Assembly: GCA_030833185.1 (NCBI GenBank)
Contig: JAURHQ010000019.1
Location: 1 to 32,754, forward strand
DNA length: 32,754 bases
Direction of reading: 5' to 3'
Origin: Gammaproteobacteria bacterium
GTDB taxonomy: Bacteria; Pseudomonadota; Gammaproteobacteria; Ga0077536
A program made the translations under genes and the position numbers. The notes under the pieces were generated by a model, which saw nothing but the letters and a program-made list of their open reading frames with translations, was not told where the DNA came from and searched no databases. This document shows, in pieces, positions 22,922 through 28,071 of the stretch; position 1 is the first letter of the stretch, and the number at the start of each line of letters is the position of its first letter.

Positions 22922-23545
22922 CTAGTAGGTGGGCGGGGTCATGGCCCACACCACCACCGTTTTGGCCCGCCCCGGATTGCGGTAGCGATGCGGACGATTG
23001 CTGGGAAAGCTGAAGCTGTCCCCGGTATCGAGGTGCAGACTCACGCCATCTATCCAGAGTTCCAGCTTGCCGGCGACGACCAGTCCGGCTTCTTCCCCTT
23101 CATGCGCATAGGGGCTCTCGCCACTGGAAGAACCCGGCGCGAACGTGGAATAGAGCAGGCCGATCTGGCGTACCGCCAGCGAATTCAACTGATAGTCGTC
23201 GATGCCTTCGGCGAAGCTGATATGGCGGCGTGCATCACGCCGCACGATGTACTGACTCGCATGATCCAAGGGCACTTCGGGCGTGAAAAACCATGAAATA
23301 TTGACGCCCAGCGCGCGGCTGATGTCGTGCAGGGTCTTGATAGACGGAGAGACCAGATCGCGCTCGAGTTGGCTTAAGTGACCGACCGAGATCCCGGTGA
23401 TGGCGGAGACCTCGGCCAGCGTGCGGGTCTGGCGCTGCCGCAGCCCCCGCAGCTTGGCGCCAATCAGGCCAGTGTCTGACGCTTCGGGCGGCGCCCCGGC
23501 GGGTGCGGCCCGCCGGGGGGCGGGCGTTTTTTTCCTGACGCTCAA
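22922..23545 (-). CDS. XRE-family regulator with C-terminal cupin sensor domain
   Basis: This 207-residue cytoplasmic transcription factor has a low-complexity Ala/Pro/Arg leader (1-25), a helix-turn-helix at about 28-85 (GLRQRQTRTLAEVSAITG, then ISVGHLSQLERDLVSPSI) and a cupin barrel at about 125-200 (YAHEGEEAGLVVAGKLELW, DTGDSFSFPSNRPHRY). This is the layout of PuuR-like regulators, which respond to a small catabolic substrate bound in the cupin pocket. The best-supported start is TTG at 23545, with GGAG eight bases upstream; no ATG fits before the HTH. It probably controls the adjacent dehydrogenase-hydantoinase genes, which begin 110 bases downstream on the same strand. A 9-bp inverted repeat lies 17 bases upstream of its start. 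Confidence 0.88.
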   Translation of the reverse strand: MSVRKKTPAPRRAAPAGAPPEASDTGLIGAKLRGLRQRQTRTLAEVSAITGISVGHLSQLERDLVSPSIKTLHDISRALGVNISWFFTPEVPLDHASQYIVRRDARRHISFAEGIDDYQLNSLAVRQIGLLYSTFAPGSSSGESPYAHEGEEAGLVVAGKLELWIDGVSLHLDTGDSFSFPSNRPHRYRNPGRAKTVVVWAMTPPTY

Positions 23546-23561: not shown

Positions 23562-23588
23562 CGGGGTGCCCGTCATTATGGCACCCCG
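23562..23588. promoter_or_regulatory. Perfect 9-bp inverted repeat between the CheW-fusion and regulator genes
   Basis: CGGGGTGCC (23562-23570) and GGCACCCCG (23580-23588) form perfect arms around a 9-base spacer. It lies 37 bases after the CheW-fusion stop and 17 bases before the regulator's TTG start on the minus strand. It could be an autoregulatory operator or a hairpin terminator or attenuator. No T-run follows. Confidence 0.5.
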
Positions 23589-23625
23589 GCCTCTTCCCGC
23601 ATCCGTCGCCCGAGAGCGACTTGCC

Positions 23626-26289
23626 TTATTCGGCCAAAGCCGGGACCTCGTCCGCTGCGGGCTCAAGGCCCGGCACTTCGGCGTTGGCCTTGGCCCGTGC
23701 CCGTGAATCAGCCGCCATGCCGGAGGCCAGGCGCGCGGACAGACGGTCCACGCTAAGCACCAGCAAGAGGCTGTCTTCGGCCGGATTGTCCGGCGCAATC
23801 GCGGCATCTGCCAGCATCGCACCGCCGCTGACCACCTCCGGTAGCGGGCTGATGCGTGACTCGTCCACTTCCGGGATTTCACCCAGCGCGTCGACCACGA
23901 TGCCAAAACGGGTGTGCGGATTTTTCTCGATGACCACCACCGGCTGCGCCTTGCGCTGGGTGAACTCGGTCCCCTTGCGGACCAGACCCAGCATGCTGCG
24001 GATGTCGAACACCGGCATCGGCATCTTCTCGTAGGTCAGATAGCCGATGCAGTCGACGCCGGCGCCCGGCGCGGCCGTGATGTTGCTGATGTCGACCGAC
24101 TCCAGCACCTGCGTCGCGCGTAGGCCAAACCACTTCTGCGCCAGCTGGAAGGTCGCCACTTCGACAGAATTTGCGCCATGGCCACGGTCGGAGCGAATGC
24201 TCGGGCAGGCGATGTCGTCGTCCTGAACTTGGCGCTCGGTGATCGGGCAGAGTTCCTTGCAGACGATGGCGATGACTTCGTTCTGGTAGGAGTCGGTATC
24301 GCTCTTGTATTCGCGATAGCCGCTGGAGGCATGCGCACCGACGGCGTAGTAGTGCCCGTTCAGCGGGATGACGCCGGTCGTTTCCGTCCCTGCGTCGAGC
24401 TCAAAGCAGGAGGCGGCGATCGGCAACCGATCGCCCGGCTTGAAGCGCTCGTCGGAGCAGGCGATCACACGGCCATCGCGCGACGCGAAGACGCCGAAAC
24501 TGCCCGCATCGATGCGGCCGTTGGCGTCTTTGGGCAGCGCGTCGCACAGCATGGCGGAGAACTGGGGCGCGGAGTCGAACACGATGCCAATGCCGCCCAC
24601 CACGCGCGAACCTTCCGGGTCGCGAATCGCGGCGCCGTAGATGTAGGTGTGGCGTCCCGCATAGAAGTGACTGGGCAGAAAATCCGACACCACATAACCC
24701 TGCGAATCGCCGATGGCGGGGACGCGGCGGTGCCACTCTTCGCCAACGCTCTGGCCGACCAGATCGCCCTCCGCTGGATTTGAAACCGCAAGGATCTTGC
24801 CGCTCACATCAAACACGATGAGGTTGGTGTAGACCGTGTACAAATTATTGATGTAGGCCAGCACATTGCCGATGCGCTCGCGGTCGGCCTCGCCCACCTC
24901 GCCACCGGCGAGCAGTTCGCGGAAGCTTGAGGTCAGCGCCCACCAGCGGCAGTCGTTCGCCCGCTCGTAGAGGTTGCGGTCCATGATGTCGATGGCCAGC
25001 GACGCCTGAAAGCGGCTGTCTTCCAGCACCGAGGAAACCACGGTTTCGTGCAGGTTGGCGATCGAACGCTGGAACACCGACTGCGTGCGAGCGCCGGTAT
25101 TGCTGATTTCCCACAGCAGGATTTTGGAAAACCCGGTGTCGCGTGCCTGACCAAAGCGACATTGTCGAACGTTGCCGTTCCACACCGATCGATTCAGGTC
25201 GCGCTGGATGCGCTCGGCCTGCACCGGGATTTGGCGCAGGCTGTCACTGAACAGCTTGGAATGTTCCATGATGCTGTCGAGCGCCTCGCGCGGAATGTCC
25301 CGCAAGAAACCGGACGAATCCCGATTAAACGCATGTTGCAGCGGCAACATCACCTGCGCGTGCCACGGCGGTCCGGCGTAGCCCTGATAGCCGGTGCTAC
25401 CGCGCGTGCAGGCCAGATATTCCTGAGCGGCGAACTTCTGTACCCGGTATTCCTCGTCCAGCACCGGCGACAGCTGGGCACCCACGGGAATGTGATAGAC
25501 GTCCGAGCTGGCGATTACACGCCCGGTTTGATCCAGCAGCGTGATGACCGACCAGTCGTCCGGCGCCACCAGATTGCCGAAGATCCCGCGCAGTTCGTTA
25601 TCGAAGCGGAAGCACAGGCACAGCACGCCCAGCGGCGTACCGTCGGTATCAACGACTCTGAAAGAGTAGATCAGCGCGGGCGTGGTCTGCGGCAGGAAAT
25701 CCACCACGTCGAAAGTCTCCACATAGCCTTCGGCGGTATCCAGCGACGTGCGGTGAAGGCTGTGTTTGGTGTGCGTAATGCCCGGCGCGTCGTTCAGACG
25801 CGCCACGATGCGGCCGGAGACATCGCTGAGCACCACGTCGGAGTAGACCGAATACTTCGCGACATATTCGGCGAAGCGCAGTCGCAGGGCTTCAAGTTGC
25901 AGGTCGTCTATGCCGCCGTGCTGGGTGACTTCGCGCAGCGCGGCGCAGATGTCTTCGTCGGTGGCGAGAAAGCCAATGTCGGCGGTGCGCTCGAACAGGT
26001 TGCGAACCAGGATGTCGATCGCGACCTGGGCTTTAGAGGTCATTTCCAGCACGCATTTGCGCAAGGTCTCGCTGGCGAGCTGGTTGAGCAGGGAACCGGT
26101 GAGTTTATGGAAGGACTGACGGGTTCCGTTCATGTCGGTTCCCGTACCGGACAACTGGCCAAGCAGCGTGAGGTTGTCCCAGACGCTTTGCAGGTTGTTG
26201 AGTTCCTCGCGGCATTCGTCGACGGCCTGCATGTTACGCATCATGCCGTCCAGGCCCACCTCGATCTCGATGTTCTTGTACTTCGCCAT
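23626..26289 (-). CDS. Soluble tandem cache-like sensor fused to a CheW domain
   Basis: This 887-residue protein has no signal peptide or membrane helix that I can see. Residues 1-75 are a helical leader. Two related sensor modules follow, at about 80-330 and 420-690. Each begins with a similar helix (AIDILVRNLFERTADIGF at about 90; AIDIMDRNLYERANDCRW at about 430) and then a YSVYSDVVLSDVSGRI or YTVYTNLIVFDVSGKI strand pair typical of cache/PAS-like folds. Residues of about 708-850 form a CheW domain (VATFQLAQKWFGLRATQVLE, MPVFDIRSMLGL, VVVIEKNPHTRFGIVVDAL). CheW couples receptors to the CheA kinase. There is no methyl-accepting coiled coil. The ATG at 26289 has AAGGAGAGAGG upstream and is preferred over a start at 26343. 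The gene lies 80 bases upstream of the regulator on the same strand. Confidence 0.85.
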   Translation of the reverse strand: MAKYKNIEIEVGLDGMMRNMQAVDECREELNNLQSVWDNLTLLGQLSGTGTDMNGTRQSFHKLTGSLLNQLASETLRKCVLEMTSKAQVAIDILVRNLFERTADIGFLATDEDICAALREVTQHGGIDDLQLEALRLRFAEYVAKYSVYSDVVLSDVSGRIVARLNDAPGITHTKHSLHRTSLDTAEGYVETFDVVDFLPQTTPALIYSFRVVDTDGTPLGVLCLCFRFDNELRGIFGNLVAPDDWSVITLLDQTGRVIASSDVYHIPVGAQLSPVLDEEYRVQKFAAQEYLACTRGSTGYQGYAGPPWHAQVMLPLQHAFNRDSSGFLRDIPREALDSIMEHSKLFSDSLRQIPVQAERIQRDLNRSVWNGNVRQCRFGQARDTGFSKILLWEISNTGARTQSVFQRSIANLHETVVSSVLEDSRFQASLAIDIMDRNLYERANDCRWWALTSSFRELLAGGEVGEADRERIGNVLAYINNLYTVYTNLIVFDVSGKILAVSNPAEGDLVGQSVGEEWHRRVPAIGDSQGYVVSDFLPSHFYAGRHTYIYGAAIRDPEGSRVVGGIGIVFDSAPQFSAMLCDALPKDANGRIDAGSFGVFASRDGRVIACSDERFKPGDRLPIAASCFELDAGTETTGVIPLNGHYYAVGAHASSGYREYKSDTDSYQNEVIAIVCKELCPITERQVQDDDIACPSIRSDRGHGANSVEVATFQLAQKWFGLRATQVLESVDISNITAAPGAGVDCIGYLTYEKMPMPVFDIRSMLGLVRKGTEFTQRKAQPVVVIEKNPHTRFGIVVDALGEIPEVDESRISPLPEVVSGGAMLADAAIAPDNPAEDSLLLVLSVDRLSARLASGMAADSRARAKANAEVPGLEPAADEVPALAE

Positions 26290-26832
26290 AGGTCGCCTCT
26301 CTCCTTTTCTGCGAGGGTTTACGCTGCAAACCGGTAGCGGCAAGGGCGCGGCGGGACTTTAGTGCAAGATGTTGATTTTTATGAATATTTAAACATGAAA
26401 AGGCACCATGTTCGTGCGCGAGACCGAAATTCCGCACCATCACGGTTAGTTTTTTGCAGGGCCTGATCGGGCGCACCGTGACAAGCGTTACAAAATCGCA
26501 AGAAAGAACGGCTGTTTAGCCCTGCTGTCACCCATAAAAGTCGCAACACAGGGCGGGCGGCTTCGCGGCCACTCGCCCGTCCGACCTCAGGCGGATTGAT
26601 TTGTCCAGATTTGCCTTTCTACGGTGCGAAAAATCGGCGCTTAAAGGCGGTTTGTGCCAAGGCGGGGCTAAAGCGGGGAAAACGCGGCGTGGGTCGCTTT
26701 TTCCGTTCGCTCTATCGACTCTGCCGCGGCCGCCCCTGCCTCGCGAGTCGCTGGCAGGATGTCCGGCTGCGGCTTGAGACAGCCCGCAAGTCATCGGGCT
26801 ACCATGCCGGCCTTCAGGGGAGGACTCGACAC
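26290..26832. other. Divergent intergenic region between the CheW fusion and the thiolase
   Basis: These 543 bases hold no gene I can support. Frames extending the thiolase upstream lack a ribosome site and have atypical composition. The part at about 26355-26550 is AT-richer (for example TGATTTTTATGAATATTTAAAC) and probably carries the promoters of both divergent genes. A small inverted repeat, CGGGCG...CGCCCG, occurs near 26552-26577. No riboswitch or small RNA was recognised. Confidence 0.5.
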
Positions 26833-28071
26833 ATGAACAATGTCTTCGTGGCCGGCGTCAGCATGACGCCCTTCGGCAAACAACTCGATCGCACAATCAA
26901 ACAGCTCGCCGGCGAGGCGCTGGCCGGGGTGCTGGCGGATGCCGGCGCCGAGACCAGCGATATTCAGGCGGTGTTCTACGGCAACTGTGTGCAAGGCCAC
27001 ATGGAAGGTCAGGACATGGTGCGGGGCGAAATCGCGCTGCGCGACGCGGGTATTCAGCGGGTGCCTGTCGTGAACGTAGAAAACGCCTGCGCCACCGGCA
27101 GCACGGCCTTCCATCTCGCCGCCAACTATGTGCGCGCCGGTGCCGCCGACATCGTGCTGGCCATTGGTGCGGAGAAAATGTTTTCACCCGACAAGGCCCG
27201 CATGTTCAGCGCGTTTGACGGGGCATGGGATGTTCATCAGGTGGAGACCAGCCGCGACACGCTGATCCGGATGGGCGACGGTGTGCCGGTGCCGCCAGGC
27301 ACGACCTCTGACAAACCCTATAGCGTGTTTATGGACGTGTACGCCGGCTTCTGCCGCTTGCACATGAAGACCTTTGGTACGACCCAGCGTCAGCTGGCCG
27401 CGGTGGCCGCCAAGAACCACGACCACTCGGTGCACAACCCGCTGGCGCAGTACCGGCGGCCGTTCTCGATCGACGAGGTGATGAGCGCGCCGCCGATCAT
27501 CTATCCGCTGACCTTGCCCATGTGCTCGCCGGTCAGCGACGGTGCGGCGGCAGCGATTGTGTGCAATGCCGCGGGTCTGGCCAAACTGAAAGGTCGCAGC
27601 AGCCGCGCGATCCGCGTGCTGGCCAGCGTGTTGCAAACCGGCAGCGACCGCGCGCCGGAGGATTACGCCAACCATGCCACGGCTCATGCGGCGCGCCGGG
27701 CCTGGGCGGAAGCCGGCATCGGGCCGCAGGACGTCTCGCTAGCCGAGGTGCACGACGCCACGGCCATGGGTGAAATCATCGAGCTTGAAGCGCTGGGCCT
27801 GACCCCATTGGGCGATGCGGGCCCGGCTGCCGAGCGCGGCGAGTTGTCGCTCGGCGGTCGGCTGCCGGTAAACGTGTCCGGCGGGCTGGAGTGCAAAGGT
27901 CACCCGATCGGCGCTACCGGGCTGGGGCAGGTGTTTGAGCTCGTCACCCAGCTGCGTGGCGAAGCGGGCGTGCGGCAGGTGGCAGGCGCCAAGGTCGGGC
28001 TGTCCCAGAATGGCGGCGGCATCATCGGCGTCGAAGAAGCCGTGGTCGCGGTGACGGTGCTGGGGCGTTAA
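26833..28071 (+). CDS. Thiolase of the SCP-x/acetyl-CoA acetyltransferase-like group
   Basis: This 412-residue thiolase-fold enzyme has the nucleophile Cys86 in VENACATGST. VHDATAMGE carries the SCP-x-type histidine motif in place of the usual NEAFA, and GGLECKGHPIGATGLGQV is followed by LSQNGGGIIG. The HDAxA motif is a mark of the SCP-2/SCP-x thiolase group, which cleaves branched or sterol side-chain 3-ketoacyl-CoA and includes lipid-transfer-like thiolases. The ATG at 26833 is chosen for GGGGAGG nine bases upstream. There is no DUF35/OB-fold partner gene next to it, though such partners are frequent in this group. It stands alone, diverging from the CheW fusion and followed by a REP-type repeat cluster. 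A role in degrading an acyl-CoA formed by the nearby ligase is plausible. Confidence 0.87.
   Translation: MNNVFVAGVSMTPFGKQLDRTIKQLAGEALAGVLADAGAETSDIQAVFYGNCVQGHMEGQDMVRGEIALRDAGIQRVPVVNVENACATGSTAFHLAANYVRAGAADIVLAIGAEKMFSPDKARMFSAFDGAWDVHQVETSRDTLIRMGDGVPVPPGTTSDKPYSVFMDVYAGFCRLHMKTFGTTQRQLAAVAAKNHDHSVHNPLAQYRRPFSIDEVMSAPPIIYPLTLPMCSPVSDGAAAAIVCNAAGLAKLKGRSSRAIRVLASVLQTGSDRAPEDYANHATAHAARRAWAEAGIGPQDVSLAEVHDATAMGEIIELEALGLTPLGDAGPAAERGELSLGGRLPVNVSGGLECKGHPIGATGLGQVFELVTQLRGEAGVRQVAGAKVGLSQNGGGIIGVEEAVVAVTVLGR

Follow-up and report, generated by a model that had tools for sequence, protein, structure and literature searches.

In the usual view, Cache domains sense signals mostly outside the cell, and CheW acts as a passive adaptor. 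Upadhyay 2016 described the Cache families as principally extracellular, with Diacid_rec and YkuI_C as the exceptions (PMC4822843). CheWS of Treponema denticola is a CheW domain fused to a CheR-like SAM sensor, for which binding and taxis have been measured, and its report describes it as the first characterized CheW-fused chemotaxis sensor and counts 30 CheW architectures in Pfam 35 as unstudied (PMC10653840). In Azospirillum, chemotaxis proteins have been linked to nitrogen metabolism, without a known sensor of the tandem dCache-CheW kind discussed here (PMC8561660). CheV also fuses a CheW-like domain to a second regulatory part, which in its case is a receiver domain.

We analyzed a stretch of 32,754 nucleotides from a Gammaproteobacteria bacterium (contig JAURHQ010000019.1; hereafter, the window), which encodes a protein with two tandem dCache modules followed by CheW (Table 1). 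Like CheV, it joins CheW to a second regulatory part, but it displays no receiver domain in Pfam. Both CheWS and the window protein are soluble CheW-fused sensors lacking a receptor signaling domain, and the input of CheWS is an internal metabolite; the sensor of CheWS is a C-terminal CheR-like SAM-binding domain, whereas that of the window protein comprises two N-terminal dCache modules. By analogy, a CheW-fused intracellular sensor is a plausible interpretation of the window protein. To our knowledge, the sensor part of CheWS has no sequence relation to the window dCache modules. The family is apparently undescribed: NCBIfam offers no family matching the tandem dCache-CheW protein, and the literature searched, which covered few subscription journals, yielded no description of CheW-Cache fusions or of Cache/CheW genes in nif clusters. 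Both CheW-borne sensing and dCache domains are already known; what the searched literature did not contain is a large family with tandem, predicted cytosolic dCache modules on CheW, with links to nif genes and sigma-54.

Table 1. The tandem dCache-CheW gene, its parts and its host locus (positions in the window)
Feature	Position	Strand	Evidence and remarks
XRE-cupin regulator	22922..23545	-	Pfam; host-locus gene, not part of the CheW system; in relatives, the locus has it but no CheW gene
Segment missing at the corresponding locus in the close relative G003	23584..26815		Flank alignment; about 51 bp in G003 instead of 3.2 kb
Tandem dCache-CheW gene	23626..26289	-	Open frame, Pfam, AF2; 887 aa, ATG start
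CheW domain, residues 708-870 by structure (Pfam 711-851)	23680..24168	-	Pfam PF01584; aligned to solved CheW
dCache module 2, residues about 420-690	24220..25032	-	hhalign, AF2, Foldseek; occurs also in soluble MCP-hairpin proteins
Motif RNLYERANDCRWWA, residues 438-451	24937..24978	-	Invariant across 55-sequence alignment
Second helical hairpin, residues 349-450	24940..25245	-	AF2; homologue of hairpin 1, hhalign E 2.3e-7
dCache module 1, residues about 85-330	25300..26037	-	hhalign to module 2; Foldseek dCache matches
Motif RNLFERTADIGFLATD, residues 96-111	25957..26004	-	Mostly invariant across 55-sequence alignment
N-terminal helical hairpin, residues 21-108	25966..26229	-	AF2 secondary structure; no MCP-tip homology
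Thiolase, divergent neighbor across the insert	26827..28071	+	Pfam; adjoins XRE-cupin in G003, G002 and G006

Domain architecture and predicted fold

A first-pass annotation had proposed a soluble protein with two Cache modules, derived from an internal duplication, and a C-terminal CheW domain, devoid of both a receptor signaling domain and a methyl-accepting coiled coil, and all of these elements are borne out by our analysis. The CheW domain is recovered by Pfam (E 2.3e-15; 56.9 bits versus a curated cut-off of 23.5), and dCache_1 (PF02743) matches two stretches of the protein (E 3e-8) at 33.8 bits, which is below its curated cut-off of 45 bits. There are no Pfam matches in the 887 residues to MCPsignal (PF00015), HAMP or receiver domains, nor to CheR or methyltransferase domains. 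The two sensor regions (residues 80-345 and 415-695) are homologous to each other (hhalign E 1.3e-20 over 235 columns, 26% identity). By simple hydropathy, taken as 19-residue means and without a dedicated topology predictor, the protein peaks at 1.32, so that no membrane helix is indicated; by the same measure, the dCache modules are predicted to have neither an extracytoplasmic placement nor flanking membrane helices.

The AlphaFold2 model, obtained with an input of 55 aligned sequences (pLDDT 87.2, pTM 0.82), is laid out as two units, each a helical hairpin plus a two-lobed Cache, followed by CheW. Each hairpin continues into the long first helix of the module that follows it, and both modules fit the dCache plan of two PAS-like lobes behind a long helix. 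In Foldseek searches against the PDB, the sensor part retrieves dCache domains (DctB 3e4p, E 2.5e-9; Tlp3, PctA and McpH), with matches spanning E 1e-9 to 1e-6, and the C-terminal part retrieves CheW (2qdl, TMt 0.79; 2ch4_W, TMt 0.84), in keeping with the Cache fold earlier suggested for the sensor regions. With the dCache_1 domains of DctB, Tlp3, PctA and McpH the window modules share the fold, the profile similarity being weak. They differ from the dCache_1 domains of transmembrane chemoreceptors and kinases, which lie outside the cytoplasm between two membrane helices, in being soluble, duplicated and below the Pfam cut-off. By hhalign, the helical hairpins have no detectable homology to an MCP tip (E 0.63 and 0.022), and we rejected the idea that they are degenerate tips. 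Foldseek also aligned ~600 columns of the tandem dCache model with another tandem Cache protein, the calcium-channel alpha2-delta subunit; the TM-score is low, so the overall arrangement differs.

Conservation, spread and potential chemotaxis partners

When one genome per species was scanned by pattern, at least 592 relatives were recovered among the 597 matches listed, spread across Beta- and Gammaproteobacteria, Thermodesulfobacteriota, Deferribacterota and Verrucomicrobiota. In the 55-sequence alignment, the architecture is retained over the full length at 42-72% identity, indicating that the combination of tandem dCache and CheW is not a chance feature. An apparent extra fused domain in one relative (L021, a 1402-aa ORF) proved to be a start-extension artefact. 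The gene is accessory across host lineages: it is carried by 26 of 200 Rhodocyclaceae genomes, by 6 of the 398 genomes of a Pseudomonadota sample (by full-length ORF) and, in the window's own genus, by two of eight other genomes (G008 at 98% identity and G002 at 46%).

The CheW domain of the family departs from the canonical form at the NLRG motif, which reads GYLTYEKM in the window protein where T. maritima CheW has GVINLRG. Upon aligning the family profile to solved CheW proteins, this site reads G-Y-x-M-Y; the R is retained in 16 of the 55 sequences and the following G in 20, and N is not among the common residues. Accordingly, the canonical contacts with CheA and receptors may be altered, which makes standard docking uncertain. 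Candidate partners do exist: CheA is encoded in each of the 53 carrier genomes tested (a count made in carriers), which would permit binding. In the genome of the window there are three genes for CheA and about 11 for MCPs. The loss of NLRG, together with the long helices ahead of each module and the response-regulator genes of PilG-like appearance that a few loci have at a distance of 3-7 kb, would also fit an inert or structural adaptor, in which a non-binding Cache scaffold or dimer spacer tunes array packing or links CheA to, for example, type IV pili. The sensor cores, however, are more conserved than the CheW domain in the same alignment and have invariant polar and aromatic residues, with RNLxERxxD invariant in both modules, which is unexpected for a mere spacer; we hence consider a purely structural role unlikely and favor a sensory one.

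The same sensor in soluble MCP-hairpin proteins

Module 2 also matches soluble proteins of ~300-440 aa that carry a single Cache with the motif RNLYERTCDVRWWATD behind a minimal MCP hairpin. These are annotated as 'methyl-accepting chemotaxis protein' and come mostly from genomes outside the window's class, in other classes of the same phylum. Among those scanned, MCPsignal was found in 17 of 17 and dCache_1 in 15 of 17; hhalign relates these proteins to both modules of the window protein (E 7e-26 and 1.7e-34), and the model of one such protein matches dCache structures. They share with the window protein the sensor family, with the motif RNLxERxxDxRWWAxD, and the lack, by eye, of any predicted membrane helix, and they differ from it in having a single Cache after the MCP tip and neither a CheW domain nor a nif association (3 of 27 versus a background of 37 of 398). 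The presence of one sensor family in both CheW and MCP-hairpin fusions suggests that it feeds chemosensory signaling by two routes. Judging from these sequence relationships, the sensor is a cytosolic branch of dCache that would feed such signaling in two architectures. Such ORFs of about 300-440 aa (L118-L141), with an N-terminal MCP hairpin and a C-terminal RNLYERTCDVRWWATD Cache, also occur on named plasmids, from Methylobacterium, Burkholderia, Paraburkholderia and Rhizobium.

The window copy in its host locus

The locus that hosts the window copy has the order thiolase (divergent), XRE-cupin, DMGDH-like DAO-GCV_T, HyuA and HyuB. From the placement upstream of a regulator and a catabolic operon, the first-pass annotation had suggested sensing of that pathway's substrate; for the DMGDH-like/hydantoinase operon seen here, the protein would couple such a substrate to chemotaxis. 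Its gene does share a strand with the XRE-cupin gene and lies 80 bp upstream of it, and in G002 the copy is separated by ~2.4 kb from another hydantoinase A/B pair, which is encoded on the opposite strand. Against this, the host locus exists without the CheW-Cache gene in the same-genus genome G003 (91-96% identity), in G002 and G006 (75-88%) and, as far as the contig fragments reach, in G033 and G027, so that the neighborhood lends no support to sensing of an operon substrate. Moreover, hydantoinase genes are missing from the vicinity of the relatives, the motif core stays invariant in lineages with a different metabolism, and the G002 copy belongs to a different subfamily, elsewhere on its contig. 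Across the family, the contexts are unrelated, with no conserved hydantoinase neighbors and with nif as the recurrent one. The first-pass annotation had named unrelated contexts as evidence against its proposal; they count against the inference from the adjacent pathway, which we regard as very improbable. As a distinct observation, the different-subfamily gene in G002 (L144; G002:C50:44000-63500) is near its hydantoinase pair and also near arginine/putrescine-type genes.

Flank alignment places the difference between the window and G003 between positions 23583 and 26816, and insertion in the window lineage would be the simplest reading of the vacant site. The closest relatives of the window protein are from Methylobacter (72% identity), with neighbors other than those in the window; it groups with Methylobacter proteins in the tree with a quartet support of 100, and two of these are nif-adjacent. 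The window copy therefore looks like a horizontally acquired gene inserted into an unrelated catabolic locus, with a direction of transfer that we infer. The GC content of the segment is 0.624 versus 0.643 for the window, and base composition gives no sign of the insertion.

Linkage to nitrogen fixation genes and promoters

Beyond nif, no family-wide common neighborhood was found among about 79 loci. Genes for nitrogen fixation are found within 8 kb of the CheW-Cache gene in at least 15 of these (counted by clusters, with representatives confirmed by NCBIfam as nifE, nifK, nifD, nifT, nifB and TIGR02935 and the rest assigned by BLASTP clustering). For instance, nifT begins 28 bp downstream of the CheW-Cache gene in L042, nifE lies 109 bp downstream in L053, and in G671 the gene is between nifHDK and draG-like/nifB genes (ORF list read by eye). 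The nif-adjacent members are scattered over the tree (9 label changes versus 14.8 in shuffles). At the level of genomes, nifH is above the cut-off in 38 of 50 carriers versus 37 of the 398 genomes of the Pseudomonadota sample. As the carrier lineages are rich in diazotrophs, we also compared genomes within Rhodocyclaceae, where nifH is found in 21 of 26 carriers versus 63 of 174 non-carriers (Fisher p 2e-5, not phylogenetically corrected); the latter 63 are thus nifH-positive genomes without the tandem dCache-CheW protein. The link is not universal, as five distant carriers of the Pseudomonadota sample have no nifH, and nifH was likewise not found in the window genome.

The promoter regions offer a second link. 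Sigma-54-like -24/-12 sites (score of at least 13, by an ad hoc consensus count over 250 bp upstream) are present in 41 of 77 members versus 54 of 1297 controls, which are ORFs of these same loci and include spurious ones (Fisher p 5e-31). The same scan found no such site upstream of the window copy or of its Methylobacter relatives L013-L015. Sigma-54 also serves flagellar and other regulons, and these sites are hence not proof of nif control; NifA upstream sites (TGT-N10-ACA) are scattered and not obviously above chance.

An alternative cue is C1 metabolism, with the protein acting in a formaldehyde-type taxis rather than reporting nitrogen status. Many carriers are methylotrophs (Methylobacter, Methylovulum, Methylovorus and Methyloversatilis), and Methylobacterium, which encodes related soluble MCP-hairpin-Cache proteins, performs formaldehyde taxis by means of MtpA, a cytosolic MCP with no recognized sensor domain described in Methylobacterium aquaticum (PMC10613068); MtpA may itself belong to the soluble MCP-Cache proteins. 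Many other carriers, however, are not known methylotrophs (Deferribacterota, Gallionellaceae and Thiobacillus), and the recurrent neighbors are nif rather than methylotrophy genes. We accordingly rank a C1 cue as weaker than nitrogen status and think it quite unlikely.

Proposed function

Taken together, we posit that the window protein is probably a cytosolic signal-input protein for chemotaxis arrays. The two tandem cytoplasmic dCache modules would respond to a metabolite or state inside the cell, by binding or reading it, and the C-terminal CheW domain would place this sensor in or near the CheA/CheW ring. A change in the dCache modules could then alter CheA kinase coupling without a membrane receptor, along the lines proposed for Treponema CheWS, with a potential effect on motility. 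The regulon of many members seems linked to nitrogen fixation and sigma-54, which points to a state relevant to N2 fixation as the likely cue, potentially redox, oxygen or nitrogen/carbon status. A broader generalization, that such CheW-anchored cytosolic tandem dCache proteins are widespread receptor-independent inputs that are expressed from sigma-54 promoters, carried with nif genes and couple the nitrogen-fixation or redox state to CheA, is offered more tentatively as a possibility. If true, CheW-borne sensing would extend to a second type, and these proteins would be candidates for connecting nitrogen fixation directly with taxis.

Additional conserved neighbors

Close to the CheW-Cache gene, nif loci repeatedly encode a conserved protein of 320 aa that has no match in NCBIfam (L053:6003-6962, L014:6153-7115 and L018:509-1495). 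A Cys-containing protein with leucine-rich-variant-like repeats, also without an NCBIfam match, is found in L043 (6568-7323), with relatives in L014, L042, L046, L052 and L053. Likewise, a conserved protein that is SIR2-like by eye is found near the CheW-Cache gene in L146 (6778-7626) and, as cluster 33, in L032, L036, L042, L043 and L066; some of the loci with this neighbor are nif clusters.
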